Shown here: positions 13,137 to 27,156 of the stretch, piece after piece
Numbering within the stretch: position 1 is the stretch's first letter
Layout: each line of letters starts with the position of its first letter
Source of the DNA: Pararhizobium sp. IMCC3301
Lineage (GTDB): Bacteria; Pseudomonadota; Alphaproteobacteria; Rhizobiales; GCA-2746425
Direction of reading: 5' to 3'
NCBI RefSeq assembly: GCF_030758315.1
Contig: NZ_CP132336.1
Coordinates: 2,943,001-3,007,000, forward strand
DNA: 64,000 nt
Notes under the pieces: generated by a model
Told to the model about the DNA's origin: nothing
Database searches by the model: none
The model's input: only the letters and a program-made list of their open reading frames with translations
Made by a program: the position numbers and the translations under genes

Positions 13137-15242
13137 TCAGTACTGGCGCTGTTCCTCGATCAGAGGCAGATTACCGATTTCGCCGGTGTGCTGCACAGAT
13201 GGTCCAAAGGCGATGGTCGCACCTTGCCGCACATAAACGGCCATATCTTCCAGATCCAGATTGTGGTTGATGACGGTGCCTCCGGTGATAGCTTCATTGG
13301 TCACCAGATGACACCAGTTGCCGACCGGCAGATAGGTTCGGCCGATGCCTTGCGGACGCACGATCGGTGAAACCAGAATGTCCGGCCCGAACATGAATTG
13401 CAGATCAAAACTCCATGAGGCGGGATCGTGGGGACATGCGACCGCCATCGGGCGCTGCACCGGCAGGCCCGTTTCGCAGGCGGTTTCCAGCGCTTTCCAT
13501 AGATAGGGCAGCAATCTGTAGCGCAGCTTCAAAGCCGTCATCACAGCATTTGCCGGGCGCTCGCCATACGACCAGGGAGCCCGGTCGCCTATGCCGTGAA
13601 ACCGCATATGGGATGAGAACACAGCCGCCTGGGTCCAGCGCACAAACAGTTCCGCATCCCGTGTATCGCCATAGAATCCGCCAATATCGGTGGCGTAGCA
13701 GGCAGCTCCCGAATTGGCCCAGGACAGGCCGCCGCGCAGCGAGGCTGCGAGGCCCTCCCAATCTGCCTGCGGATCGCCGCCCCACTGCGCCGGATAGCGC
13801 TGCGAACCGGCCCAGCCGGCACGGGCAAGCAGGCAGGCACCGTTTTTGGCATACATCTCTGATGCTTCAAAAACGCAGCGATTATACAGCAGCGGATAGA
13901 CATTATGCAGCCGTTTGCCGGTATCGCCATTATAAGCCTGGCAGTCCGGCTCGACCTGTTCGCCAAAATCGCTCTTGATCATGTCGACGCCAAGGTCAAA
14001 CAGGGCCTTGTGTTCATCGCGCCACCAAGCATAGGCCGCCGGGTTGGTAAAATCGATCAGGCTTGAATCCGGTAGCGGCGTCAGGACCTTGCCGAACGGC
14101 TCCATGTCCCATTCATAGCGGTAGGGCAGGCCGCTTCGCCGGTCGGTTAGAAAATAGCCCTTGTCGCTCAACTCGTCATAGATCGGACTGTTGACGGAGA
14201 CGAGTGGGTATTCCCAGCAGCAGACATGAAACCCCATCGCCTTGACCTGATCGATAATGCTTTTCGGGTCCTCAAAGCGTTTCGGATCGAAATCGAAATG
14301 GAACCGTGTATCGGTATCCTGCCAGGCGCGGCCATCAAACGTGATGGTATCGCAGGGCATCCCGTAACTGCGCACCGTGCGGGCAGCCTCCAGAAACTCA
14401 GCTGGCGTTTGATAATAGGCTTTCGACAGGATCGCACCAAGGCTCCACAATGGCGGCATCACAGGCCGGCCGGTGAGACGCGTATAGCGCTCCAATATCT
14501 GTTCGGGCGTTTTGCCGGCAATGAGAAACAAATCAATCGCCTCATCTTCTACCAGCAGTCCGTAAGCGCGGTGTGACCATTGCGAAAACCCGATCGCATG
14601 CAATACTGGTGCGGGGGTGTGGACAAAGATGCCCCAGCCCGCCGGTGACCAGGCAAACGGGCAGTTTTTGTAAGAGCGTTCGGAATTGACACCCAGCGCA
14701 TCGTGGGTGAACGAATGGACAAGCTGACCGCGCTTGTCGAGCGGGCCCCACTTCTCGCCAAGCCCGTAAACCGGGTCCTGGCTGGTCAGATCCAGATTGA
14801 CCAGCCATCCCTTATCGACCCGTGCAAAGGGCGGCAGGCGGAATTCGCGTACAAAATGCCCGTCGCGGGCCGATTCCAGCACCGGACGGTCCCATCTGCG
14901 AAAGTCAATCGCCATCGGCTGGTGTCGTACGGTCAGCGTGAAAAATCCCCAACTGATCGTGGTTTTCCCCTCGCCACCGGAGATTTCCGCCGCGACCGGT
15001 TCCGGTTCGCCATCCAGTATGCCGTAAACCGGCCTGTTATGCGGTCCAAGATTAAGCCGCACGCCATTTTCAAGCGTTGTCACGCGAAACGGGCCGTCGG
15101 TGGTTTCAAACACCAGCTGTCCTGGCGCGACAACACTGGCAGTACCGAGAATTTCCGTCTGGCGGCAGGCGCTCCAGTTCGGATTCAGGATGTCGAATGG
15201 CGCTGCATTGTCGATGTTGGCGGTCTTTCCAAGGGCACTCAT
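13137..15242 (-). CDS. Glycoside hydrolase family 31, alpha-xylosidase/alpha-glucosidase type
   Basis: The 701-residue enzyme hydrolyses alpha-glycosides with retention. The catalytic nucleophile is the Asp in DMIKSDFGEQ (about residue 425) and the acid/base the Asp in CYATDIGGFYG (about 519). WGGDPQADWEGLAASLRGGL and HGIGDRAPW complete the GH31 pattern. Around the substrate-binding loop it reads TITFDGRAWQDTDTRFHFDF, closer to the YicI alpha-xylosidase arrangement than to the YihQ sulfoquinovosidase. No signal peptide is seen, so it acts on imported glycosides. I chose the ATG at 15242, preceded by a purine-rich stretch (GAGAGAG), over a GTG at 15257. It is the last gene of the kinase-aldolase-isomerase operon, 11 bp after the isomerase stop. 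Confidence 0.93.
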   Translation of the reverse strand: MSALGKTANIDNAAPFDILNPNWSACRQTEILGTASVVAPGQLVFETTDGPFRVTTLENGVRLNLGPHNRPVYGILDGEPEPVAAEISGGEGKTTISWGFFTLTVRHQPMAIDFRRWDRPVLESARDGHFVREFRLPPFARVDKGWLVNLDLTSQDPVYGLGEKWGPLDKRGQLVHSFTHDALGVNSERSYKNCPFAWSPAGWGIFVHTPAPVLHAIGFSQWSHRAYGLLVEDEAIDLFLIAGKTPEQILERYTRLTGRPVMPPLWSLGAILSKAYYQTPAEFLEAARTVRSYGMPCDTITFDGRAWQDTDTRFHFDFDPKRFEDPKSIIDQVKAMGFHVCCWEYPLVSVNSPIYDELSDKGYFLTDRRSGLPYRYEWDMEPFGKVLTPLPDSSLIDFTNPAAYAWWRDEHKALFDLGVDMIKSDFGEQVEPDCQAYNGDTGKRLHNVYPLLYNRCVFEASEMYAKNGACLLARAGWAGSQRYPAQWGGDPQADWEGLAASLRGGLSWANSGAACYATDIGGFYGDTRDAELFVRWTQAAVFSSHMRFHGIGDRAPWSYGERPANAVMTALKLRYRLLPYLWKALETACETGLPVQRPMAVACPHDPASWSFDLQFMFGPDILVSPIVRPQGIGRTYLPVGNWCHLVTNEAITGGTVINHNLDLEDMAVYVRQGATIAFGPSVQHTGEIGNLPLIEEQRQY

Positions 15243-15253
15243 CTCAATCTCTC

Positions 15254-16639
15254 TCACGCCATGATAACGGGAAGGCCAAGCACACTGGCTGCGGCCGTCA
15301 AAGCTTCCGCATGGTTGCCGTAAGCCAGCGTCGTATGGTGTTCCAATCCGGCATCCATCACGGTTTTCAAAGTGGACTTGATCCCCGCATCAAAGCTGAG
15401 AACGCCGGCGGTTCCGGAAAACGCCAGCGGGGCCTGCTGCATTTCGCCGGTCGCCAGAAACAGGCTTTGCGCGCCACGCGCCTGGCTGATGCGGGCCAGC
15501 GTCACCCGTCCCGGTTTGAGCGGAAATTCAAACAGAAGTGGCATTTTTCGGTTGGAATGAATGGCGGCTTTCGGCTGGAATTCAGGCTCGCACATGGAAA
15601 CCGGTGCCTGTCCGCAATGCCACACCACTCCGGTTTCGCTGGCTTCATCCAGATCGACCAGATCGACGAGAAAGGGCGGCATGCCGGTCAGTTCCTGAAC
15701 CAGCAGATTGGTCAGAGCGCCATAGACATCCGCTTCGCAGGCGCATGGGATTCTGGCTTCACCCATCATACCCACCGGGCCGCAAACGGCTGCGCCATAT
15801 TCGGTAAAGGTTTCCGGCCAGCACCGGATGGCAAAAGCGCTGTAATCCTTGCCTTGCTGCAGCGCCTGCAAGGCTCCGTGCAAGGCCAGCGAGCGCTCCA
15901 GTTGCGGCTGGTCAAGTTCGCCAAGACCGCGCAAATCCGCAACTTTGCTTCGGCTGGCGGCGATGCTCTGCGCCGGAATATCCCGTGCAGTTTCAAACAG
16001 ATCGTCAAGGGCGATTTCATCGACCGTAACGCCGGTCAGTTTTTCGATGGTTTTGGAGTTGTAACGGCAGGTTGCAAAGCCGTCCGGATGGTCTCCGATG
16101 CGGCCAATACGTTTGCCTTTCAGCCGCTCGATCACCGGAGCAACCGCGCTGGTATCCGCGTTTGCATCTTCGCCAAAGCGCGGAGTCGCTTCTCTGTCGC
16201 CGGATAGAAAATCGTCCAGCAGCGTCACCACATCGGTGTCTTGCGGGGCGCTATAGGCATAGGAAAACGCTGTGTCGTTCAACCCCAGCGCATGCGCGGC
16301 CAGGTTGAGGCCGCAAAATGCATTCAGCCGCAGCCGGCCACCAAGACGGGGTTCGGGAAAAGCCCACAGGGCCAGCGGAGCAGCCAGCTGATCGGCAATT
16401 CTGATCGTCATACTGGCATCGGTAAAGGTAACCTGAAGGATCAGCACAAGGTCGAGATGCTGCGTCTTCAAGGCTTCCAGCGCTGCCAGTGTCGCATCAG
16501 CATCAAGCAGCAGTGTCTCGCCGCCAATGATGTCATGGCCGCTTTTCAGCAGCGCCTGCCTGGCTTGTCCCAGCAGCTCTTCAGCAAACGCTACATCGAA
16601 GGTCGGCCGGCCAAGTGCCAGTACACCAATGCTGGACAT
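15254..16639 (-). CDS. L-fucose isomerase-like sugar isomerase (COG2407 type)
   Basis: The 461-residue protein has the fold signature of the L-fucose/L-arabinose isomerase superfamily. The C-terminal half carries likely metal-binding positions in CEADVYGALTNLLVQ, FLVDLVDLDEA and VVWHCGQAP. The N-terminal half (VGVLAL-like start, then LLDADATLAALEALKTQHLD) matches the first Rossmann-like domain of the family. It would convert an aldose to a ketose in the cytoplasm. It lies between an aldolase gene (11-bp gap) and the GH31 gene, downstream of a PfkB kinase. That context places it as the aldose-ketose step of a kinase/aldolase pathway. The substrate is not known; isomerases of the E. coli YihS type belong to an unrelated family. 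A strong GAGGAG sequence sits just before the start. Confidence 0.82.
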   Translation of the reverse strand: MSSIGVLALGRPTFDVAFAEELLGQARQALLKSGHDIIGGETLLLDADATLAALEALKTQHLDLVLILQVTFTDASMTIRIADQLAAPLALWAFPEPRLGGRLRLNAFCGLNLAAHALGLNDTAFSYAYSAPQDTDVVTLLDDFLSGDREATPRFGEDANADTSAVAPVIERLKGKRIGRIGDHPDGFATCRYNSKTIEKLTGVTVDEIALDDLFETARDIPAQSIAASRSKVADLRGLGELDQPQLERSLALHGALQALQQGKDYSAFAIRCWPETFTEYGAAVCGPVGMMGEARIPCACEADVYGALTNLLVQELTGMPPFLVDLVDLDEASETGVVWHCGQAPVSMCEPEFQPKAAIHSNRKMPLLFEFPLKPGRVTLARISQARGAQSLFLATGEMQQAPLAFSGTAGVLSFDAGIKSTLKTVMDAGLEHHTTLAYGNHAEALTAAASVLGLPVIMA

Positions 16640-16650
16640 ATCATCTCCTC

Positions 16651-17706
16651 TTAAAACCCGGCGTAAGTGTTTCGGAAATGCGCATCCGCGTCTTCAACAA
16701 CAACATCGGGACTGCTTGTTCCGTTGTAGCGCTGGTGATTGAACCAGGGAAGTGCGTTCGCGTCTGTCAATGCGTTGATCGAGCGCATATAGGGCACTGC
16801 ATCAGCTTGCAGACCGGCACGTATTGCATCCCAGTCGGGAAATGCCCCAAAGGCATCCAGCCAGATCGCCCGCCCGGCGAGATAGCCCGAAGCTCCGGCC
16901 TTATAGGCATACTCAAGAATACTGCTGAATGCGGCCTTGTCAGCGCCCGCCGACAGCATCACCCAGGGCCGTGCCGACAAGCGCCCCATTTCATCAAAAA
17001 GGGCCTGGATCGCATCCGATCCCATCGACCCGTTTCCGGCGGCGACAGCGGCGCTGACAGGGCTTTCAAGCTTGAAGACATCAATGCCGTAATCGGGATG
17101 GGCAAATTCCGCGACACTGCCCAGCACATGGGCTGAATCCTTGCCCTGCATCTCGACATAATCCTTGGTCTGATGCGCGTCATGGGCCAGCGGATAGACC
17201 AGCAGTTCAAACAGGAACGGAATGTCATATCTGGCACAGGCGTCACCAATGCGTTTGGTGAAATCCTTTTGCGCCTGACAGGCCGCCGCAGATGCATCCG
17301 GGCGATACCAGGCAAGCACTTTGACCGCATCGCCGCCAACGCGTTTGATTTTCTCGACGCTCCAATCGTCTATTTCCGACGATATGCGGCCGTTTTCGGT
17401 TTCTTCAAACAGCGAATCCTCCAGGGTCACGATCAGCCCCCTGGCCGGATCGGCCATCCGCAGCCCCTTGGGCAGGGCATAATGCGGATCCAGCAGCATT
17501 GCCGTGGCACTGGATTGCAGCTCCTCCAGCAGCATCAGCTTGAACCGCGTCACATCCTCATATGGCGCCTCTGCAGTGCCGCGAATTTTGGCAATCGGAT
17601 TCTTGATCGGCGGGCGCTGATCGACCGCAAGCATTTTGAACCGGCCGGCGCCGTCAGCCATCCTGCGCAGGCTCCATAATTTTCCGGGAGAAAGTGAATT
17701 TGTCAT
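16651..17706 (-). CDS. Class I ketose-phosphate aldolase, LacD/YihT-like
   Basis: The 351-residue protein belongs to the class I aldolase family that includes tagatose-1,6-bisphosphate aldolase LacD and sulfofructose-1-phosphate aldolase YihT. The Schiff-base lysine is Lys212 in GIDVFKLESPV (YihT has DLYKVEMPL at this place). The phosphate- or sulfonate-side arginine is Arg279 in GASGYLAGRAIW, and the N-terminal FKMLAVDQR motif is shared. It should release DHAP and a three-carbon aldehyde from a ketose-1-phosphate. It is about 25-60 residues longer than LacD and YihT, with extra sequence at both ends. It overlaps the kinase gene upstream by 4 bp (ATGA), so their expression is coupled. LacD-like or YihT-like specificity cannot be settled by eye. 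Confidence 0.85.
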   Translation of the reverse strand: MTNSLSPGKLWSLRRMADGAGRFKMLAVDQRPPIKNPIAKIRGTAEAPYEDVTRFKLMLLEELQSSATAMLLDPHYALPKGLRMADPARGLIVTLEDSLFEETENGRISSEIDDWSVEKIKRVGGDAVKVLAWYRPDASAAACQAQKDFTKRIGDACARYDIPFLFELLVYPLAHDAHQTKDYVEMQGKDSAHVLGSVAEFAHPDYGIDVFKLESPVSAAVAAGNGSMGSDAIQALFDEMGRLSARPWVMLSAGADKAAFSSILEYAYKAGASGYLAGRAIWLDAFGAFPDWDAIRAGLQADAVPYMRSINALTDANALPWFNHQRYNGTSSPDVVVEDADAHFRNTYAGF

Positions 17707-18629
17707 AAGGAGATCGGCTCCATCTGGAGTGTTTGATTTTCAAGAAAACGATTTAGCTCTGCACGGCGAGGCGTGCCTGTGCGGCCGCCAAACCGGGTGC
17801 ATTTCAAAGCGGCCGCGCCGGAAGCAAAAACCAGCGCCTGCTCATCACTCTGGCCCTCCGCCAGCGCCAGCGCGAAAGCGCCATGCCAGACATCTCCGGC
17901 ACCCAGTGTGTCTACCACATCTATCGCAAATCCGGGCAAATGACGCAGCACTCCATCGCGGGCGACATAGACACCGTTGGGTCCATCAGTGACGGCCGTC
18001 CAGCGCCCCTCGCGCCTTGCGCTGGCGCTGAGTAACCCCGTCAGCAGATTGTCCTCGCCGGCATAATCGTGCAGGCCCTGTGCGGAGAAAACCGGATGGC
18101 TCGACAGAATTACTGCTGCCCGTTCAGGACTGCCAAACGGCATCTCTCCATCCAGAACCGCAGGAATGCCCTTTTCCGCCGCCAGTTCAAACAGCCGCAC
18201 CGCACCTTCCGCCCAGCGGCTGTCGGCAACAACAGCATCGGCTTCGCGAGTAAAATAATCCGCTACAAAGCCAGGGTCTGTGGGAATGGAATTGTCTCGA
18301 TAGCCCATGATCATGCGCTCGCCCGTCTGGTCCACCATGATCGCCGACAGGGGGGATTTCAGACCATCAAAGCGTCTGACTCCGGCGCAATTGACGTGAT
18401 CGGTTTCAAGATCGCGGATGATGATGTCCGCCGTAAAATCATTGCCGAGGCGGGAGATCAGATGGCTGTTACCGCCGAGCCGGGCCACAGCGACGGCTGC
18501 GGTGGCAGCACAGCCCCCGCCGGTGACGGCGAAATCCCTGGCGCGGTATTTGCGCGGTTCGCTGGGTATCTCGTCGACTGAAAAGACGAAATCCTGTACG
18601 GCGACGCCAAGTGTGATGACCGTGGCCAT
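17703..18629 (-). CDS. PfkB-family sugar kinase, YihV-like
   Basis: The 308-residue ribokinase-fold enzyme phosphorylates a ketose, probably at C1. The glycine-rich motif GGGCAATAAVAVARLGG (residues 37-53) and the catalytic TLGAGDVWHG (base Asp246) are intact. Compared with my recollection of E. coli sulfofructose kinase YihV, the alignment is nearly ungapped: ADSRW aligns with ADVRW, keeping Arg138, and VFASGAAALKCTRFGGRTG matches its C terminus. However, position 109 is Gly where YihV has a sulfonate-binding Asn. It is the first gene of the operon kinase-aldolase-isomerase-GH31, with the shared operator about 110 bp upstream. Kinase call is firm; the substrate is inferred only. Confidence 0.88.
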   Translation of the reverse strand: MATVITLGVAVQDFVFSVDEIPSEPRKYRARDFAVTGGGCAATAAVAVARLGGNSHLISRLGNDFTADIIIRDLETDHVNCAGVRRFDGLKSPLSAIMVDQTGERMIMGYRDNSIPTDPGFVADYFTREADAVVADSRWAEGAVRLFELAAEKGIPAVLDGEMPFGSPERAAVILSSHPVFSAQGLHDYAGEDNLLTGLLSASARREGRWTAVTDGPNGVYVARDGVLRHLPGFAIDVVDTLGAGDVWHGAFALALAEGQSDEQALVFASGAAALKCTRFGGRTGTPRRAELNRFLENQTLQMEPISL

Positions 18630-18735: not shown

Positions 18736-18758
18736 AGTCTTATGTCTTTTACAAGACT
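18736..18758. promoter_or_regulatory. Putative operator, copy 1 (shared 23-bp motif)
   Basis: This lies in the divergent promoter region between the kinase operon and the Sel1-repeat gene. The outer arms AGTCTT (18736-18741) and AAGACT (18753-18758) are inverted repeats around a T-rich centre, with TGT and ACA as inner partners. The 23 bases 18737-18759 recur without a mismatch at 22662-22684. The right half (TACAAGAC) recalls GntR/FadR-type operators. No cognate regulator gene is in the window. Confidence 0.7.
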
Positions 18759-18879
18759 CTCTTTATCCGGGGAACGGCTTTCGCGTCGAAACGCCTGTCG
18801 CACCTGACGTGATCATCCGTGGGCATTGCGTTTCGCTTCCGGATTCCTATTGTGGGGAGAGCTATCGAAGGACAGACCG

Positions 18880-19398
18880 ATGCTTAAACCCAACTTTGCA
18901 CGTTACCGTGGCGCCACAACAGCCTCTGCCTTGCTTCTGTTGCTGGCCGCGATCTGGTCGCAAAGCGCGTCCGGCGAGGATTTTTTCGACGGACTGACAG
19001 CCATGAAAGCAAGCCGGTTTGAGGAAGCCCGGCAGATATTCCTGCCGCTGGCGCAGGGCGGAAATGCCGATGCGGAAGAACTGATCGGGGTCATGTATGC
19101 GATGGGGCTTGGCGTTAACCGCGACGATGAGCGCGCATTCGACTGGTATCTGCGCGCCTCGCTGAAGGGCCATCCCGGCGCGCAATCCGGCATTGGCTGG
19201 TATTACGAGGTTGGACGCGGCATTCCGGCACCGGATCTGGTGCGGGCCTATACCTGGTATGTTCTGTCGGCCATTGGCGGTGATCCTGACGCGGCCATTT
19301 CGATGAATGAGGTGGTCAAGAAAATGACACCTGAGCAGATTGCGAAAGCAGAGATCCTGATTTCAGACTATAAGGACCACCTGTATCCAGAAGATTGA
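18880..19398 (+). CDS. Secreted Sel1-like repeat protein
   Basis: The 172-residue product starts with a signal peptide (TTASALLLLLAAIWSQSASG) and then has tandem Sel1/TPR-like units: FEEARQIFLPLAQGGNADAEELIGVMYAMG, RAFDWYLRASLKGHPGAQSGIGWYYEVG and RAYTWYVLSAIGGDPDA, each about 36 residues. Such alpha-helical repeats bind protein partners in the periplasm. I chose the ATG at 18880, which has AAGGA eight bases upstream, instead of an in-frame TTG at 18826 that would spoil the signal peptide. It is divergent from the kinase operon and shares the operator region at 18736, but whether it belongs to the sugar pathway is unclear. Confidence 0.85.
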   Translation: MLKPNFARYRGATTASALLLLLAAIWSQSASGEDFFDGLTAMKASRFEEARQIFLPLAQGGNADAEELIGVMYAMGLGVNRDDERAFDWYLRASLKGHPGAQSGIGWYYEVGRGIPAPDLVRAYTWYVLSAIGGDPDAAISMNEVVKKMTPEQIAKAEILISDYKDHLYPED

Positions 19399-19434
19399 AG
19401 GCAGCTACCTCATGGCGGGAGGCTGAAAACCAAA

Positions 19435-19465
19435 AGGCCGCTTTGACACAGGGTCAAAACGGCCT
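19435..19465 (-). terminator. Rho-independent terminator of the TRAP operon
   Basis: A 13-bp stem (19435-19447 with 19453-19465, one mismatch) closes over a 5-base loop. Read on the minus strand it is followed by TTTTGGTTTT, so it suits the dctP end of the TRAP operon; on the plus strand no T-run follows. It may still block read-through from the Sel1 gene. Confidence 0.75.
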
Positions 19466-19507
19466 GATCTGGTTCGGACACCTGGGTCCGTATTAATGCC
19501 GGATAGC

Positions 19508-20596
19508 CTATTTGGTATCCATCATCGCGGCACCGTCAATTTTGGCTTCGGCCTCTGCTGCCGCGTCGACCAGGGCCTGATAGATGGTTTCGCCTTCGCG
19601 GATATTGGCCTTGAACCAGTCAAATACCGGTGCTGCCGCGTCGCGGAACATGGCCTTTTCTTCCGGCGTTGGCACATACAGATTGCCGCCACCGGCGACA
19701 AATTCCTCATAGGCCTCGATGGATTTGCGTTTTGGCGAGGCAAATGTGGCCTGTTGCAAGGCCGCAAACCCGTCAACAATGACGCGGCGCAGATTTTCAT
19801 CAAAACTCATGAACCGGTCATTATTCATGTACCACAGGGCGCCCATGTAAGCATGGCCGTCAAGCGTTACATATTGCAGTCCGGCATCGGGGAATTTCAT
19901 CCCCATAATGTCAGTAATACCGTTCTTGGAGCCTTCCACCACGCCGGTCTGGAACGAAGTGAACAGTTCCGGCCAGGGAATCGGTGTCGGGCTGGCACCC
20001 AGTGCTTTGACCAGTTCCTGCGGCAGATCAGCCACCACGGTACGGATTTTCAGGCCCTTCATGTCTGCAGGCGTCTTGATCGGACGCTTGGTATTGGCAA
20101 AGTTGCGCCAGCCACCGGTATTGCCGACCGTCATCAGGCGGATTGTACCGCCGGAATCTTCCAGCATCTGCGCCCGCAGGGTGCGGACAAAATCACCTTG
20201 CAGAACCTCCTCTGCAATGCGGTCATCGCGCAGCAGATAAGGCAGATCGAGCACCTGCACATAAGGGAAGATGCCGGCAGCACCGCCTGATGTGGAAATA
20301 TAGATATCGATCGATCCGTCAGAAATACCCTGCAGACATTCCGCACCCTTCGAGCATAATTGCGTGCCGATGAACAGATCGACGGCAATCGCGCCGTTTG
20401 AAGCGTTTTCCACATAGTTCTTGAACACGACAAGGCCGTCATAATCCTCGTCATTTTCATTTGAATTGGCGGTCGCGCGCAGGGTGATTTTTTCAACATG
20501 CGAGGCCGCCTGCACGTCGGATATCATTCCGCCGCCCGTAAACGCTGCTCCAACGGCGAGCGCCGCGAAGGTTGACAGTAAGGATTTAAGTTTCAT
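19508..20596 (-). CDS. TRAP transporter solute-binding protein (DctP family)
   Basis: The 362-residue protein is the periplasmic binding component of a TRAP transporter. It has a signal peptide (LLSTFAALAVGAAFTGGG ending near VQA) and the DctP blocks GIFPYVQVLDLPYLLRDD, GNTGGWRNFANTKRPIKTPADMKGLKIR with the substrate-binding arginine, and PTPIPWPELFTSFQTGVVEGSKNG. It is third in the minus-strand operon dctQ-dctM-dctP, 78 bp after dctM, and ends at a terminator hairpin. TRAP proteins usually take carboxylated or sulfonated acids, which need a carboxylate or similar anion to pair with the arginine. That makes an acidic or sulfonated sugar ligand attractive in this gene context, though this is inference. 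Confidence 0.92.
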   Translation of the reverse strand: MKLKSLLSTFAALAVGAAFTGGGMISDVQAASHVEKITLRATANSNENDEDYDGLVVFKNYVENASNGAIAVDLFIGTQLCSKGAECLQGISDGSIDIYISTSGGAAGIFPYVQVLDLPYLLRDDRIAEEVLQGDFVRTLRAQMLEDSGGTIRLMTVGNTGGWRNFANTKRPIKTPADMKGLKIRTVVADLPQELVKALGASPTPIPWPELFTSFQTGVVEGSKNGITDIMGMKFPDAGLQYVTLDGHAYMGALWYMNNDRFMSFDENLRRVIVDGFAALQQATFASPKRKSIEAYEEFVAGGGNLYVPTPEEKAMFRDAAAPVFDWFKANIREGETIYQALVDAAAEAEAKIDGAAMMDTK

Positions 20597-20674
20597 GAAG
20601 TCCTCCCTTGATTATTGATCTCAGTCTATTCGCTATGATGTGACAGGCAAGTGTCAAGCGTCTGCTTTTCTGTA

Positions 20675-22012
20675 TCAGCCTCCAATAAGCAGTCGCAGTA
20701 CCGGTCCGAGCAGATCGGAATCCGGTGATACGAAACCGGTGAGCCATGGCATGCCCATGGAAATTATCGGGAAATAGGTGATCAGAAAAATCACCACCAC
20801 TTCGACGGCCAGGAACGGCAGAATTGCCTTCGAAATGGCCTCCACTTTCTCGCCCGAGACACTCGAGGCGACAAACAGCACCAGTCCCATGGGCGGCGTC
20901 GCCAGGCCAACGGTCAGATTGACGCTCATGATAATGGCGAAATGAACCGGATCAATGCCCATACTGACGAAAACCGGGCCCAGAATTGGGCCAAGAATGA
21001 TGATCGCGGGACCGGCATCAAGAAACATGCCGACGATGAACAGCAGGATGTTGATGAGGAACAGCAGCATCAACGGATCGCTTGACAGGGTCAGGATAAA
21101 ATCGGCAAGCGCCTCCGGCGCCCGCGACAGGCTGACAACGGTCTTGAAGGCCATTGCCGCGCCGACCAGAAGCAGGACAACAGATGAGGTGAGCGCGGAT
21201 TTTTGCAGAATGGATGGCAGATCCCTGAGTCCGATGGTTTTCAAAATGAACATGCCGACAATGAAGGCATAGGCGGCGGCAACAGCCGAAGCTTCAGTCG
21301 GGGTCATGATGCCGCCGAGAATGCCGCCCAGAATAATGACAGGTGTCAGAAGCGGAAAGAATGCCTTCACCAGCGCATCGCCGCGTTCACGCCAGGTCGC
21401 GCGCTCCCGCGCAACCGGATAATTATAACGCTGCGCCATCATGCCGGTGACGACCATCAGGCCGATGCCGACCAGAATGCCGGGAACGATGCCTGCAAGA
21501 AACAGCGCGGCCACGGATTCCCCCATCACATAGGCATAGATAATCATGATACCGGAGGGCGGAATGATCGGACCGATGACCGAGGAGGCTGCCGTGATGG
21601 CCGCCGCAAAACGCCGTGTGTAGCCCTGCTTTTCCATCGCCGGAATGAGCATCGAGCCAAGTGCCGAAGTGTCGGCAACGGCAGAGCCGGACAAGCCGGC
21701 AAAGAGCATTGAAGACAGAATATTGACATGGGCCAGACCGCCGCGGAAATGACCCATCATCGACTGGCTGAACTCCACCAGACGCGTCGTTATGCCGCCC
21801 CGGTTCATCATTTCTCCGGCCAGCATGAAGAATGGAATCGCCATCAGCGGAAACGAATCGATGCCGTTGAAGACGTTGCGGTAGAGCAGCGCCAGGTCGC
21901 GCTCCTGGCCGCTCAGCCAGAGCAGGAATCCGGGCGCGAAAAGCAGGCCGAAAAACACCGGCAGACTGATCATCAATAGCAGCAGGAACAGCGGCAGGAA
22001 CCAGACAAGCAT
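20675..22012 (-). CDS. TRAP transporter large membrane subunit (DctM)
   Basis: The 445-residue protein is the large permease subunit, with about 12 membrane segments, driving Na+- or H+-coupled uptake. MLVWFLPLFLLLLMISLPVFFGLLFAPG is the usual start, and MMNRGGITTRLVEFSQSMMG, SAVADTSALGSMLIPAMEKQGY, IIPPSGIMIIYAYVMGES and NLTVGLATPPMGLVLFVASS are DctM hallmarks. It begins 5 bp after the dctQ stop and is followed by dctP. Complete and intact. Confidence 0.95.
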   Translation of the reverse strand: MLVWFLPLFLLLLMISLPVFFGLLFAPGFLLWLSGQERDLALLYRNVFNGIDSFPLMAIPFFMLAGEMMNRGGITTRLVEFSQSMMGHFRGGLAHVNILSSMLFAGLSGSAVADTSALGSMLIPAMEKQGYTRRFAAAITAASSVIGPIIPPSGIMIIYAYVMGESVAALFLAGIVPGILVGIGLMVVTGMMAQRYNYPVARERATWRERGDALVKAFFPLLTPVIILGGILGGIMTPTEASAVAAAYAFIVGMFILKTIGLRDLPSILQKSALTSSVVLLLVGAAMAFKTVVSLSRAPEALADFILTLSSDPLMLLFLINILLFIVGMFLDAGPAIIILGPILGPVFVSMGIDPVHFAIIMSVNLTVGLATPPMGLVLFVASSVSGEKVEAISKAILPFLAVEVVVIFLITYFPIISMGMPWLTGFVSPDSDLLGPVLRLLIGG

Positions 22013-22017
22013 AGGGT

Positions 22018-22569
22018 CTACTCCGCCACGAGTTCCGGCGAAGGATCGCCTGTCTTGTAATCCACACTTGGGTCGAGCAGCTCGTGCAATTCTTTCAGGA
22101 TCAGTTCAACACAGGCAAATATCATCAGCGCAAACCCGACCGGAAGCGCCATATAGACCCAGGCCAGCTTGATTTTCAGAGTTGCGGAGCCAAACAACCA
22201 GCCGCTGGTGATGTGTTTCAATCCGAACTGCACCATGACAATCAGAACGAGCAGGGAAATGCCAAACAGACTCAGGGTCAGGATGGCCCTCGGCCAGCGC
22301 GGCAGCAAATCGCGCACCATGTCTATCGAGACGAATGCACCCCAGCGATAGGCCGATGGTGCCATCAACCCGGTCAGCCACAGCATCAGCACCCGGGCCA
22401 GTTCCTCCGACCATGGCAGAGCATCATTCAGCACGTAGCGGGCAAATACCTGGGCGAGAATAATCAGGACCATCACCCCAATGGCCATCCAGGACAGCTG
22501 TCTGCCAAGCCAGAACAAACCGTCATTGATACGGCTTAACAGTGTTATGATACCTGCCAGCGCGGCCAT
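22018..22569 (-). CDS. TRAP transporter small membrane subunit (DctQ)
   Basis: The 183-residue DctQ subunit has four membrane segments (LSWMAIGVMVLIILAQVFARY, LARVLMLWLTGLMAPSAY, ILTLSLFGISLLVLIVMVQFG and YMALPVGFALMIFACVELILK). The NDALPWSEELAR motif after helix one is characteristic. It is the first gene of the TRAP operon; its promoter region (22570-22709) carries the second copy of the shared operator. The order Q-M-P is the usual one. Confidence 0.93.
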   Translation of the reverse strand: MAALAGIITLLSRINDGLFWLGRQLSWMAIGVMVLIILAQVFARYVLNDALPWSEELARVLMLWLTGLMAPSAYRWGAFVSIDMVRDLLPRWPRAILTLSLFGISLLVLIVMVQFGLKHITSGWLFGSATLKIKLAWVYMALPVGFALMIFACVELILKELHELLDPSVDYKTGDPSPELVAE

Positions 22570-22661
22570 GATGATCCCCTACATCGCCCAATTCATACGG
22601 ACATGCAAAACGAAGCTGCGGGTTCGGTCAATTTATTTCTTTTCTTTCGCAAGCCTAGCAG

Positions 22662-22684
22662 GTCTTATGTCTTTTACAAGACTC
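22662..22684. promoter_or_regulatory. Putative operator, copy 2 (shared 23-bp motif)
   Basis: This is identical over 23 bases to 18737-18759 and lies between the divergent TRAP operon and the EamA-GH116 genes, 26 bp upstream of the EamA ATG. The sequence around it is not conserved between the two copies, so the identity is not a recent duplication of the whole region. It links transport and hydrolysis genes to the kinase operon. Confidence 0.72.
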
Positions 22685-22709
22685 AGGACAAAATCGACCG
22701 GAATTGGAT

Positions 22710-23621
22710 ATGCAGACATCTGTCACCAACCGCTCAATTCTGCTGGCGCATCTCGCTCAGCTGGTATCGGTGATCATTATATCCGTCGGCTTTATGGTGC
22801 AGAAATCTCTGGTCCGGGAATTTGCCGCTCCCACCATTCTGCTCTGGCAATTCCTCGGCGCAAGCGCAGTGATGTGGCTCATCTGCCTCGTCCGACAGTT
22901 CCATCGGTCAGTCAGCCGGCGCTTCGCCTTCATTCTACTGTGGGGTGGCATGGCGCCCGGTCTGGTGATGATTTTTACGATTTATGGCGGTGCCCGGACC
23001 GATGGCGTGTCGCTGGCGGTGATGTGGGGCCTGTTGCCGCTGCTGGTGCCGGCCCTCGGATTTCTCTTGCTGGGTGAAAGAGCCCACTGGAGCCTGGGTC
23101 TGGGTGCGGCGATCGGCTTTGCCGGGCTGATTGTTCTCAGTCTCAGCCGGGAAGCGGTCGGGGCCGGCAACCTGACCGGCAACGCGCTGGTGCTGCTGGC
23201 GGTGCTGTGTGCAAGCTTCAGCCAGATTGTCGGACGGCGCATGAACCGGGGCGCAATCCCGTGGTTTCAGGTTGCAACGTTGCAGGTCTCCGGCGCGCTG
23301 ATTGCCATAATTGGTCTCTCGCTGGCAACCGGAACGCTCACCCTGCTGCCTCTGACATTGCCGCTGCAGGGCATCGCGATGGCCTATCTCGTGCTGGTCA
23401 TGACCGTCCTGAACTATGCTCTGTTCAATTACGCGCTGCGCCATCTGCCAGTTGCCTGGGTCTCAATCTATGTGGCGCTGAACCCGGCCTTTGGCACGCT
23501 GGCGGCCATCGTCATTCTCGATGCGAAGCCGCGCCCGCTTGACTGGATCGGCATGGCGATCATTATCGGTGGTGTCACGCTTCCGCATATTCACGCTCTG
23601 TTGCACAGGAGATCACGATGA
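22710..23621 (+). CDS. EamA-family (DMT superfamily) membrane transporter
   Basis: The 303-residue protein has ten predicted membrane helices arranged as two EamA repeats (starts near LLAHLAQLVSVIIISVGFMV and near NALVLLAVLCASFSQIVGR). Members export or import metabolites such as amino acids, nucleotide sugars or small acids. I chose the ATG at 22710 (MQTSVTNRS) rather than the TTG two codons upstream. Its stop overlaps the GH116 start by 4 bp (ATGA), so the two form a unit controlled from the operator at 22662. In this context it may release a pathway end product or take up a substrate; neither is shown. Confidence 0.88.
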   Translation: MQTSVTNRSILLAHLAQLVSVIIISVGFMVQKSLVREFAAPTILLWQFLGASAVMWLICLVRQFHRSVSRRFAFILLWGGMAPGLVMIFTIYGGARTDGVSLAVMWGLLPLLVPALGFLLLGERAHWSLGLGAAIGFAGLIVLSLSREAVGAGNLTGNALVLLAVLCASFSQIVGRRMNRGAIPWFQVATLQVSGALIAIIGLSLATGTLTLLPLTLPLQGIAMAYLVLVMTVLNYALFNYALRHLPVAWVSIYVALNPAFGTLAAIVILDAKPRPLDWIGMAIIIGGVTLPHIHALLHRRSR

Positions 23622-25966
23622 CCGCACCCCGTGCTGCTTTCACCACAGCCATGGACACCACTATTGCGGAACCGAGGCGCAAAATTGCCGCGCAGACCGG
23701 CGGTTCATCCGATGTCGGCCTGCCGCTTGGCGGATTGGGCACCGGAGGCATCAACTTTTCCAAATCCGGGCGGTTCAGCCGCTGGACCCTCAATCCGCAA
23801 CAGGTTTTGTATCACCATGATGTCGCTGCCGGATTTGCAGTGTGGCACCACCAGGCCGGGCACAAGCCCGCCGCCTGTCTGTTACAACCCGATCCCGGAG
23901 ACGGGTCATTTACCACAGCATCGTGGCGCGATACCCAGGAAAAGGACGATGGCGAAAACGTATATTCAGCGTTGTTTCCAAAAGCCTGGCACGATTTTGC
24001 TGGCTGTTCCGGTCCGGTCCGGCTGAGTTGCGAGAGTTTTTCACCCATGCTGCCGGAAGATATGGCAGCCAGCACATTGCCGGTTGCGGTGTTCAACTGG
24101 CATCTTTCCAACATTTCCGATGTTGCGGTCAGCGTTGCCCTGATGTTCCACTTTCCCAATCTGATCGGTGCGTTTCGAGACAAGGACCGGCCCTATCGCC
24201 GTCATGGCGGCTGTTTCAACAGCCTTGATTACAGTGAGACTGCGCTCGCCATTGTCTTCGACCGGCTGAGAACCGGCCCGCAATGCGATATGGGTGAAGG
24301 CCAGATGGCGATTTCAGTCGCCAGAGCGCCGGGCCTGACGCTCACCGGCCGCGCCAGCTTTGATGCAAATTCCGATGGCCGTGACTGGTGGCCGAATTTT
24401 TCCCGCACCGGAACTGTGCAAAACTCCGAGGACTGGATCGCCGATGCCGGATTTCTCGAGACCGAATCCAACCGCCCGGCGGGTGCGCTGGCGGCGAAAT
24501 GCGAACTTGCACCCGGCGAGAGCCGCACCATCAGCTTTGCACTCAGCTGGGACCTGCCCGTCATCCGGTTCGGTGCCGGACGCCGCCACGCCAGAAAATA
24601 CACGGAAGTCTGGGGCACCAAAGGCAGCAGCGCGCTGGCCTTGAGCGAACATGCACTGTCTCATGGCCAGGGCTGGTCGCGCCGGATTGATGACTGGCAC
24701 ACAACCGTGCTGGCAGAACTGGGAGACGATCCGGCTTTTAGTGGCATGATGCTGAATGAATTGTATTTTCTGGTTGACGGCCAGACAGCCTTCACCGCCG
24801 CAACGGAGGCGGAGGCCGTCCCGGATGAAGGTCATTTCGGCCTCATCGAATGCCCGGATTATCCTTATTACAACACCCTGGATTTGTGGATTTACGCTTC
24901 AGAACCCGTGCTTCGATTCTGGCCCGAGGCAGCGCGTCTGGTGATGCAGGATTATGTTCGCAGTGTGCCGCAGCATGACAGCCGGCTGCGCCGCCATATG
25001 CGATCCGGCAACTGTTTTCCGCTGAAACGGGCCGGCGCTCTGCCGCATGATCAGGGCGCTCCCGATGAGGACCCCTGGTTTGTTAATAATGGCTATGCCT
25101 GGCAGGATTCCACACAGTGGAAAGATCTTAATGCCCAGTTCCTGATCGGCCTCGTCCGCGATGCGGGGTTTTTTGGCAAGGACTGGCTTGAACGGCAATG
25201 GGAAGTCGCTCGCATGGCCTGCGCCCATCTCAACACATTTGACCGTGACGGCGACGGCCTGATTGAAAATGACGGCTTTCCCGATCAGACCTTCGACAAT
25301 ATCCCGATGAAGGGACCGGGCGCCTATTGCGGCGGATTGTGGATTGCGGCGCTGTTCGCCATGGCCAAGGCAGCCAGAGAACTTGGCGACACCGCTGCTG
25401 CCAGAGCTTACCGCGAGCAGGCGCTGGCCGCCCGTGAGGCGTTTCAGACCCATTTGTGGACCGGAACTTATTATCGGCTGGACCGGGACGGACCGTTTTC
25501 GGATTGTCTGCTGACTGAGCAATTATTCGGCGCATTTCTGGCGCGGCGCTATGGGTTTGGTGAGGTGGTTGCCGATGAACACGCCATTCTGGCGCTGAAA
25601 ACCCTGTATCGTGAAAACTTTCAAAAGGCCGGGCAGGGCGAAGGTGTCATCACCCTTGCCAACATGTCGCCAACCGCCGTGCAGGCGGTGCGCGATGACA
25701 GTCATATCGCCTTCCAGACATCAGAATCCATTGTCGGATTTAATTTCAGCTTTGCCGCGCAGCTGGAGGCCTGGGGCCTGACAAGGCAGGCCGGTGAAAT
25801 CCGCAAGTCGCTGTATCGCAATCTTTATCAGCGCGGCATGTTTGCCCGCACCCCGGCGGCCTATGATGTGTCGGATATGGATAACGGGCTGAAATTTCGT
25901 GCCAGCATGAATATGCGTCCGCTGGCGGTCTGGTATGGCGCACCGTGGAAACCGGGTTGCCAGTAA
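23618..25966 (+). CDS. Glycoside hydrolase family 116 (beta-glucosidase/glucosylceramidase type)
   Basis: The 782-residue enzyme belongs to GH116, a family of retaining beta-glycosidases that includes human GBA2 and bacterial beta-glucosidases and beta-xylosidases. The N-terminal domain opens with LPLGGLGTGGINFSKSGRFS, and the C-terminal alpha6/alpha6 barrel carries the nucleophile Glu411 in FGLIECPDYPYYNTLD and the acid/base Asp556 in ENDGFPDQTFDN. No signal peptide is visible, so it is probably cytoplasmic. It is translationally coupled to the EamA gene. Together with the GH31 enzyme it gives the island both alpha- and beta-glycosidase activity. The stop codon lies inside a tandem 11-bp repeat. 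Confidence 0.9.
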   Translation: MTAPRAAFTTAMDTTIAEPRRKIAAQTGGSSDVGLPLGGLGTGGINFSKSGRFSRWTLNPQQVLYHHDVAAGFAVWHHQAGHKPAACLLQPDPGDGSFTTASWRDTQEKDDGENVYSALFPKAWHDFAGCSGPVRLSCESFSPMLPEDMAASTLPVAVFNWHLSNISDVAVSVALMFHFPNLIGAFRDKDRPYRRHGGCFNSLDYSETALAIVFDRLRTGPQCDMGEGQMAISVARAPGLTLTGRASFDANSDGRDWWPNFSRTGTVQNSEDWIADAGFLETESNRPAGALAAKCELAPGESRTISFALSWDLPVIRFGAGRRHARKYTEVWGTKGSSALALSEHALSHGQGWSRRIDDWHTTVLAELGDDPAFSGMMLNELYFLVDGQTAFTAATEAEAVPDEGHFGLIECPDYPYYNTLDLWIYASEPVLRFWPEAARLVMQDYVRSVPQHDSRLRRHMRSGNCFPLKRAGALPHDQGAPDEDPWFVNNGYAWQDSTQWKDLNAQFLIGLVRDAGFFGKDWLERQWEVARMACAHLNTFDRDGDGLIENDGFPDQTFDNIPMKGPGAYCGGLWIAALFAMAKAARELGDTAAARAYREQALAAREAFQTHLWTGTYYRLDRDGPFSDCLLTEQLFGAFLARRYGFGEVVADEHAILALKTLYRENFQKAGQGEGVITLANMSPTAVQAVRDDSHIAFQTSESIVGFNFSFAAQLEAWGLTRQAGEIRKSLYRNLYQRGMFARTPAAYDVSDMDNGLKFRASMNMRPLAVWYGAPWKPGCQ

Positions 25967-25998: not shown

Positions 25999-27012
25999 TC
26001 AGGACATGTTGAAGCGGTAGATCGTTTCCTGGAAATAGTTCTCGCCGGGCCGCAAAGTGGCGTCGGTAAAGTGGCGGTGATTGGGGCTGTCCGGCCAGCG
26101 CTGCGGCTCCAGGCAAAGTCCGGCGCTGACGCCGTAAGTGCGGCCATCCAGACCCGGCACCGGTACGTTGACCTTGTAGCCATCATAAAACTGAAGCCCG
26201 GGTTCGGTGGTCAGCACATCCATCGACAGGCCGTTTCTGGGGCTGCTCAGCCGCGCCGCCGAAACCGGGTTGGGTCGCGACGCCAGCGCCAGCACGTAAT
26301 TGGTGTCAAACGCAATCCGCCGTCCGTCATGCAAAGTGCGCACAGGGCGCGCTTCGCGGAAATCAAACAACGTGTTCTTGACCGGAAGCACCGCGCCGCT
26401 CGGGATCATGTCCGGGGACACCGGCGTATAGGCATCCGCTTCAATCTGCAGCGTATGGTCCAGAATATCCGGGGAGCCGTCGAGATTGAAATAGGAATGA
26501 TGTGCCAAATTCATCAGTGTCGGTGCGTTGGTGGTGGCTTCATAGATGATATGCAGCGAGGCCGGCGGCACAATCTTGTAGGTGCAACTGACCATCACCC
26601 GGCCCGGATAGCCATCCTCGCCATCTGGCGACACCAGGGTCAGACGAATGGAATCCGGCGCAATCGCCCCGACCGTCCACAGCCGTTTGCCAAAACTTGC
26701 ATGACCGCCATGCAGATGGTGCGGCTCGGTGTTCTGGCTCAATTGATGTGTGCGCCCGTCCAGTTCAAACCGGCCATAGCCGATGCGGTTGGCATAGCGC
26801 CCCACAGTGGCACCGAAATAGGGTGAGTGCTGGGTGTAATCCTCAAGACGATCGAAACCGAGCACCAGCGGGTGGTCAAATCCGTCGAGCCGCAGGTCCC
26901 GCAACACCGTGCCCCAGGTCAGAACTTTTGCCCGCAAAGCACCGGCACCGATTTCCACTTCGTTGATCTCGGTGCGATCTTCCAACTTGCCGAATGGTCG
27001 CTTGAAATTCAT
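25999..27012 (-). CDS. Aldose 1-epimerase (galactose mutarotase family)
   Basis: The 337-residue enzyme interconverts alpha and beta anomers of free aldoses. The conserved GATVGRYANRIGYGRF, HHLHGG, the catalytic histidine in MNLAHHSYFNLDG and the catalytic glutamate in GLCLEPQRWPDS are all present. The ATG at 27012 has GAAGG nine bases upstream and is preferred over a TTG at 27036. It lies downstream of the SDR gene on the minus strand (144-bp gap) and is convergent with GH116. It suits a pathway where glycosidases release anomerically pure sugars. I withhold galM because sugar specificity is unknown. Confidence 0.92.
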   Translation of the reverse strand: MNFKRPFGKLEDRTEINEVEIGAGALRAKVLTWGTVLRDLRLDGFDHPLVLGFDRLEDYTQHSPYFGATVGRYANRIGYGRFELDGRTHQLSQNTEPHHLHGGHASFGKRLWTVGAIAPDSIRLTLVSPDGEDGYPGRVMVSCTYKIVPPASLHIIYEATTNAPTLMNLAHHSYFNLDGSPDILDHTLQIEADAYTPVSPDMIPSGAVLPVKNTLFDFREARPVRTLHDGRRIAFDTNYVLALASRPNPVSAARLSSPRNGLSMDVLTTEPGLQFYDGYKVNVPVPGLDGRTYGVSAGLCLEPQRWPDSPNHRHFTDATLRPGENYFQETIYRFNMS

Positions 27013-27156
27013 GAACCCAACCTTCAATCGAATCAATGCCTGACTGTCTGTCTTCCGTGTTAGCGCAGATACTCACGCGAGGAAACGGGTCAGTCTTCCC
27101 GCTGTAGTGGCGCAGAAGCGGCCCTGTTCGTGATCTGCATCCGCTTTGCCGCTCAA

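Follow-up and report, generated by a model that had tools for sequence, protein, structure and literature searches.

The locus and its repeated motif

The window considered here, a stretch of 64,000 nucleotides from Pararhizobium sp. IMCC3301 (positions 2943001-3007000 of the one contig of 4,583,537 bases that makes up the whole genome), carries an island of sugar genes in which a 23-bp motif, GTCTTATGTCTTTTACAAGACTC, occurs twice on the forward strand, at 18737-18759 and at 22662-22684. The two copies are identical in 23 of 23 positions and the sequences flanking them differ, base 18736 being A and base 22661 being G. Both sit between divergent genes: the first between the start of a kinase gene (18629, minus strand) and a Sel1-repeat open reading frame (ORF) of the plus strand (opening at 18826, with its ATG probably at 18880), and the second between the start of the gene for DctQ (22569, minus strand) and that of an EamA transporter (plus strand, TTG at 22704 or, probably, ATG at 22710). 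An earlier note on this DNA had described this arrangement, judged a chance match very unlikely, and proposed a shared operator of a sugar regulon, whose regulator would be encoded outside the window. Within the window we found no third place for the 23-bp motif with up to three mismatches, and 100 shuffles gave 0 matches.

The kinase is the first gene of a minus-strand operon. It belongs to the PfkB family of Pfam and is probably a sulfofructose kinase (17703..18629), followed by a DeoC/LacD-family aldolase that by homology is probably a sulfofructose-1-phosphate aldolase (16651..17706), a sugar isomerase with a Pfam Fucose_iso_C domain that is related to the sulfoquinovose isomerase SftI (15254..16639) and, directly after it, a YicI-like GH31 glycosidase (13137..15257), in the position that a GH188-like gene takes in most related clusters. 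The Sel1-repeat protein (18826..19398, plus strand) diverges from the kinase. The second copy lies before a TRAP transporter identified with Pfam, with the small permease DctQ (22018..22569), the large permease DctM (20675..22012) and the solute-binding protein DctP (19508..20596), all on the minus strand, and before the divergent pair formed by the EamA transporter (22704..23621) and a GH116 glycosidase (23618..25966), both on the plus strand. By sequence, homologues of all three enzymes of the sulfo-Embden-Meyerhof-Parnas (sulfo-EMP) pathway are present (sulfoquinovose isomerase, sulfofructose kinase and sulfofructose phosphate aldolase), the kinase being the strongest: its best match in the PDB is the sulfofructose kinase 7ag6 (5.2e-60), followed by 2rbc (4.1e-44). 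The island resembles, at this level, the sulfo-EMP pathway of sulfoquinovose degradation.

A third copy beside a GntR/HutC gene

A search of the whole genome with a 21-bp form of the motif, allowing up to three mismatches, recovered the two window copies and one other place, at 2033963-2033983 (two mismatches), 0.93 Mb away from the window, and the reversed pattern used as control gave none; the motif is not a dispersed repeat. This third copy lies between a regulator gene of the GntR superfamily (G000:C1:2034051-2034815, 255 residues) and divergent suyA-suyB-slcC-comC-like genes. The earlier note had suggested looking for a GntR- or LacI-type gene that itself carries the motif; the gene found here fits this and lies outside the window. 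The protein has an N-terminal GntR winged helix (PF00392, 1.5e-22) and a C-terminal UTRA domain (PF07702, 1.5e-28), the architecture of the HutC subfamily. The FadR subfamily carries an FCD-type C-terminal domain, and no FCD domain was found in the regulator at E<=0.001, so that the initial guess of a GntR/FadR-type factor was right about the superfamily but not about the subfamily. At E<=1e-30 the genome has one GntR match, the one adjoining suyAB.

The divergent operon consists, in this order, of a small ORF, a GD_AH_C protein, a 2-hydroxyacid dehydrogenase and an Ldh_2 protein, which is the order of the SuyA, SuyB, SlcC and ComC families in sulfolactate sulfolyase operons and fits the numbering of the Paracoccus wurundjeri loci in PMC12421959. 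The functions of these genes are putative, all of their products scoring below curated sulfonate cut-offs; for the Ldh_2 protein the best curated model is L-sulfolactate dehydrogenase, with 208.5 bits for a cut-off of 500. A scan for sigma-70-like promoters gave one match near the suyA site, where 0.4 are expected, and none at either window operator.

The nearest full-length relatives of the regulator with solved structures in the PDB are DasR and YvoA/NagR. NagR contacts its operator through Arg38 and Arg48 (PMC4333415), and the equivalent places in the regulator, located by eye, appear to be Gln (PSEQ, VSQGT), a change that would fit an unusual operator.

The third site, the regulator gene and the conservation described below all support a shared operator. 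We consider it very probable (about 0.86) that the two copies in the window are operators of one autoregulated GntR/HutC factor, the product of G000:C1:2034051-2034815, which would control three modules of sulfoquinovose and sulfolactate metabolism.

Conservation within the genus

All three sites are present in four of the five genus genomes searched, that is, IMCC3301 itself and three relatives with the island, with three hits of the reversed control over the five. The fifth genome (G001) has no site and no isomerase, and its GntR match reaches just 34%. The three relatives with the island share most of the gene order at both loci, except that GH116 was not found in one of them (L043). When the kinase promoters of the four genomes are aligned, the motif is the sole long invariant block, and the copy at the TRAP promoter is also kept, with one base differing in two of the relatives. 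This comparison, which the earlier note had proposed, places the motif at orthologous positions.

The most fitting reading of the motif is an imperfect palindrome of 14 bp, with the core GTCTTATATAAGAC, and in front of it a third half-site in direct orientation, GTCTTAT. At the first copy the half-site covers 18737-18743 and the core 18744-18757, and at the second copy they cover 22662-22668 and 22669-22682, respectively.

The operator beyond the genus

A wider scan was anchored on the isomerase, and the best 80 of 316 loci were retained. For each promoter we took the best site in the 350 bp upstream, scored out of 14, with a threshold of at least 11, which was reached by 0.7% of 4080 base-shuffled upstream regions; the loci are related and the counts are not independent events. 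At this threshold, the kinase operator is present in 28/30 loci with a linked GntR gene, in 10/23 with neither regulator linked, and in 0/24 with only a DeoR gene linked. The corresponding figures are 11/17, 5/14 and 0/26 for DctQ, and 7/19, 0/17 and 0/26 for DctP, and for suyA the count is 26/26. DeoR genes occur in 31 of the 80 loci; the 26 loci with DeoR alone lack the operator before the kinase as well as before DctQ and DctP, and 20 of these 26 bear names that we take to belong to Rhodobacterales. Four loci with both GntR and DeoR genes (L057-L059 and L062) have the kinase operator, and L120, with a DeoR hit and an unrelated GntR gene, lacks it. L120 (GntR 31-32% identical, no orthologue) is one of the two GntR-linked loci without a kinase operator, the other being L051. 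At positions 1289-2777 of L051, HutC and DeoR regulators stand side by side, and the HutC operator was seen only at suyA/gntR.

The clusters of other families with a linked HutC gene have the regulator inside the cluster, whereas the genus of IMCC3301 keeps it away from the island. Palindromes like GTCTTATATAAGAC precede the kinase in these clusters, often also the TRAP genes, and lie between the regulator and suyA, and seven Hoeflea loci carry four of them each. The HutC-linked clusters with an operator before sulfoglycolysis genes bear mainly Hyphomicrobiales names. Among the 80 clusters, 24 include suyA or suyB within one stretch of up to ~21 kb.

Using one Hoeflea regulator as query (E<=1e-35), we searched 50 genomes without a linked regulator and found an unlinked one in 21 of them (22 loci), which adjoins suyAB in 20/22 cases and has an operator of at least 11/14 in 22/22. 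Counted per genome, and leaving out eight of the 80 loci with an unreadable kinase promoter, the kinase operator is present in 35/44 genomes with a detected orthologue of the regulator versus 0/28 without one. Eight further regulator loci all have the operator, and seven of them adjoin suyA; four of the eight (G041, G103, G021 and G068) are in genomes without an isomerase match. The regulator is first of all a neighbour of suyAB, since it adjoins these genes in nearly all loci, also in genomes without a detected isomerase. Sites, regulator gene, conservation and co-occurrence are in this sense direct observations on the genomes. On a tree with 59 of 60 rows, whose midpoint root serves for drawing only, the kinase-operator label is clustered (seven changes, at least three of them forced, with 0/500 shuffles as low), and the tree does not fix the direction in which this operator evolved.

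After five loci had been dropped as duplicates or partial, the third half-site beside the palindrome matched at 5/7 or more, in the 7-bp register, in 36/37 kinase, 13/13 DctP, 46/55 suyA and 6/17 DctQ sites, where chance would give ~2.6%, on either side, at equal base frequencies.

The sugar

The sulfosugar sulfoquinovose is most likely the substrate, because the third site precedes a sulfolactate-lyase-like operon and related clusters have homologues of the GH188 sulfoquinovosidase; the original idea of a sugar regulon is supported and would narrow to a sulfosugar. A Gfo/Idh/MocA gene more than 45% identical to that of L051 occurs in 75 of the 80 related loci, and the L051 protein matches SqgA (8qc3, 2.6e-110), the NAD-dependent sulfoquinovosidase of family GH188, with the residues Arg166, Lys172, Glu189 and His193 (PMC10755693). 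The spacing of these four residues is kept in 77 of 78 homologues, the exception, L060, being cut short or unmatched. In the genus of IMCC3301, SqgA gave just partial matches of 24-29%, in three of the five genomes.

A further cluster, L203 (G530:C18:9500-29000), comes from the same phylum and another class. Its GH31 is 54% identical to that of the window, and it encodes a TauD-family dioxygenase, an aldo-keto reductase, TauE and YeiH-like exporters and a SorA-like sulfite dehydrogenase (below its cut-off), together with a GntR gene (38%) and three operators scoring 12-14/14, at 615, 9340 and 11419. Read against what we take to be the enzyme families of the sulfo-SDO pathway, L203 looks like a candidate sulfo-SDO cluster outside the class of the window. 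This pathway has been reported from Gammaproteobacteria (PMC13372026). By homology and context, sulfoquinovose would be associated with this GH31 type on two occasions, each time next to the same operator.

The proposed regulon and its alternatives

In the regulon that we propose, the regulator would bind the palindrome, with its third half-site, between divergent genes. The first module would be the kinase-aldolase-isomerase-GH31 operon, the second the TRAP transporter plus the divergent EamA-GH116 pair, and the third the regulator's own gene plus the divergent suyA-suyB-slcC-comC-like operon. Sulfoquinovose would be taken up and cleaved by the sulfo-EMP route to dihydroxyacetone phosphate and sulfolactaldehyde, the latter would be oxidised, and the resulting sulfolactate would yield pyruvate and sulfite. 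A HutC dimer would occupy the palindrome, and the third half-site would perhaps hold a further subunit. The factor would most likely be a repressor of the divergent promoters, released by a pathway intermediate; binding, repression, inducer and enzyme specificities are what we infer here. We favour sulfolactate as inducer because the regulator adjoins suyAB in nearly all loci examined, with or without a detected isomerase. It would not hold for L203, since the route proposed there makes no sulfolactate.

A broader scenario goes beyond the regulon itself, and we offer it tentatively, with the odds somewhat against it: the suyAB-linked HutC regulator could be a sulfosugar master switch, whose operator spread from sulfolactate desulfonation to the promoters of transport and sulfoglycolysis in Hyphomicrobiales, with sulfolactate, a late intermediate, inducing the entire route within a single cell, and with a related regulator using the same operator to run a sulfo-SDO pathway in another proteobacterial class (L203).

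Several observations weigh against the proposed regulon or against its individual parts. The aldolase shares the DeoC/LacD family with YihT but is nearer to tagatose-bisphosphate aldolases (3e-37 to 5e-34) and to 8tnf (7.5e-88) than to the sulfofructosephosphate aldolase 7ag1 (1.4e-18). The sole curated match of the isomerase is the NCBIfam SftI model, with 269.5 bits, far below the cut-off of 700, and a profile search gave it no PDB match at E<=0.001. The sulfonate-binding residues of YihQ, which we take to be Q288, R301, W304 and Y508, correspond in one MAFFT alignment to a gap, R, F and F in the GH31, and with W304 and Y508 not kept the residues give no support for a canonical YihQ-type sulfoquinovosidase. 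The SuyB-like protein is without a curated model of its own, its best one being galactarate dehydratase, below cut-off. The ORFs scanned in the island include no aldehyde dehydrogenase, just a short-chain dehydrogenase/reductase, and none of the three 21-mer places in the genome adjoins an aldehyde dehydrogenase or a recognised sulfolactaldehyde dehydrogenase. The aldehyde dehydrogenase of such clusters occurs, at more than 55% identity, in 18 of the 80 related loci, and its best homologue in IMCC3301, 54% identical, lies elsewhere in the genome. In nine of the 44 genomes with an orthologue of the regulator the kinase operator is missing, and among the 35 positive sites that of L084 falls inside a neighbouring gene and is doubtful. 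The 14-bp core alone, with up to two mismatches, is not enriched in the genome (12 rows versus 30 for the reversed control) and is unspecific over five genomes (28 versus 22), and was rejected as a genome-wide search tool. Moreover, since a similar operator is already in the literature for SdhR, neither the regulator nor the inducer can be told from the motif alone.

Some of these points would be explained if the same regulator and operator served another sulfosugar, for instance in a sulfofucose or sulfotagatose route. The affinities of the aldolase and the missing canonical residues of the GH31 favour this option, as does P. wurundjeri, which uses suyAB-slcC-comC for sulfofucose (PMC12421959). 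Yet the kinase has a sulfofructose kinase as its best match, the GH188-like homologues are nearly constant in related clusters and keep the sulfoquinovose-binding spacing, and the kinase and aldolase homologues of P. wurundjeri were, according to the same paper, not raised on sulfofucose; we regard another sulfosugar as unlikely. Less probable still, in our view, is that the sites belong to an SdhR-like carbon regulator and that a signal from central metabolism, instead of a sulfosugar intermediate, switches the genes. The resemblance of the operator to that of SdhR speaks for it, and so do the neighbours of the SdhR motif in other Proteobacteria, namely genes for isocitrate lyase and for members of the isocitrate dehydrogenase and malate/lactate dehydrogenase families, with a GntR gene adjoining in the malate/lactate case. 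On the other hand, the single GntR match of the genome at E<=1e-30 adjoins suyAB, no central-metabolism gene stands at any of the three 21-mer places, and a search of the genome for the 26-bp SdhR motif in full gave no match at up to three mismatches, its second extra half-site being missing. Finally, the copies could be identical over 23 bp because they were recently duplicated, belong to a mobile or dispersed repeat, or match by chance, but just three places exist in the genome, their flanks are unrelated, shuffled sequence gave no match, and the sites are kept at orthologous places in four genomes, with a variant form in other families; this explanation is extremely improbable and was rejected.

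Relation to known regulators and pathways

Within the HutC subfamily the closest precedent for the operator is that of SdhR, TCTTATGTCTTATATAAGACATAAGA, described as a 'palindrome with additional symmetry' by Suvorova et al. 2015 (PMC4494728), who also note that additional half-sites occur near sites of the GntR family in general. The suyA/gntR site of IMCC3301 matches a stretch of this motif in 20 of 21 positions, ungapped and with one extra half-site in register, so a palindromic core plus an extra half-site is not new as such and the DNA specificity is hardly new. The usual, though not universal, HutC consensus NyGTMTAKACNy does not fit the core GTCTTATATAAGAC, which lacks GT and AC spaced by 4 nt; this mismatch does not exclude membership in HutC, for which PMC4494728 lists subfamily exceptions, SdhR among them. 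With three mismatches, the SdhR motif gave 10 matches in 398 Proteobacteria genomes and none for the controls. By Pfam, ten flanking ORFs comprise two of the malate/lactate dehydrogenase family, two of the isocitrate dehydrogenase family and three isocitrate lyases; the remaining three are a pseudouridine synthase, a flagellar export protein and an ORF to which Pfam gave no family. At five of the SdhR-motif places in other Proteobacteria there is a GntR gene with 35-39% identity to our regulator, and one of these places is the cluster L203. SdhR and our regulator both belong to the HutC subfamily; in IMCC3301 the second extra half-site is missing and the putative targets are sulfosugar and sulfolactate genes, whereas the SdhR-motif matches elsewhere lie mostly near central-metabolism genes; the target of SdhR itself we presume from its name.

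CsqR/YihW, presumably of the DeoR family, is like our regulator a local regulator of a sulfo-EMP pathway, but comes from a different protein family. It regulates the sulfoquinovose genes of E. coli (PMC10991401). An operator of three units is also known for NanR, a GntR-family repressor that binds (GGTATA)3 with three units bound cooperatively (PMC8012715). In NanR the units are direct repeats, whereas our operator has one direct and one inverted pair.

The tandem sulfofucolytic-sulfolactate sulfolyase pathway of P. wurundjeri (PMC12421959) joins, as proposed for IMCC3301, sulfosugar cleavage and desulfonation in one bacterium, a combination that the paper calls unusual, with suyA, suyB, slcC and comC adjacent and kinase and aldolase homologues within the same cluster. 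Unlike our system, it follows an Entner-Doudoroff-like sulfofucose route and uses an ABC transporter. The main text of that paper does not contain the word 'regulator', and a 2026 review (PMC12890257) contains neither 'regulator' nor 'transcription'; our literature searches turned up no published GntR factor controlling sulfoquinovose or sulfolactate genes. PMC6018796 names a regulator gene, suyR, there without a family, whose product may belong to the same protein family as ours. The regulator family and the operator type are already known; what appears to be new is the regulon, in which one HutC regulator would tie sulfoglycolysis to sulfolactate desulfonation. The operator offers a sequence marker for clusters that are possibly co-regulated with desulfonation, and it opens to direct test the questions of which bacteria can mineralise sulfoquinovose on their own and which signal prompts them to do so.

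Other observations

An aldose 1-epimerase gene (25999..27036, minus strand) belongs to the same island and is without an operator of its own at up to three mismatches. Small Sel1-repeat proteins often accompany clusters of this kind, with a homologue in 18 of the 80 related loci, and a GH116 homologue (42%) occurs in a Rhodobacteraceae cluster of the same kind (L131, near 4103). In 46 of the 80 loci (for example, L068 and L091), the sulfosugar cluster contains or neighbours a gene homologous to that of L051 for a MauG-type di-haem cytochrome c peroxidase; the Pfam scan of window ORFs showed no such peroxidase.

Two more places in the genome of IMCC3301 were considered and not counted as part of the regulon. 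The first, at G000:C1:992679-992699, has two mismatches to the degenerate pattern, and its nearest downstream ORF of at least 90 residues is ~450 bp away. It contains, at G000:C1:992686 (L005 1501-1514), a perfect 14-bp palindrome with a weak third half-site and no ORF start close behind, which is not among the genus motif matches in relatives. The second, GTCTTATATAAGAT at G000:C1:3062075 (L007 1501-1514), is without a third half-site; it lies 30 bp before a glycosyltransferase ORF, and three relatives (L139-L141) keep it with one base changed.

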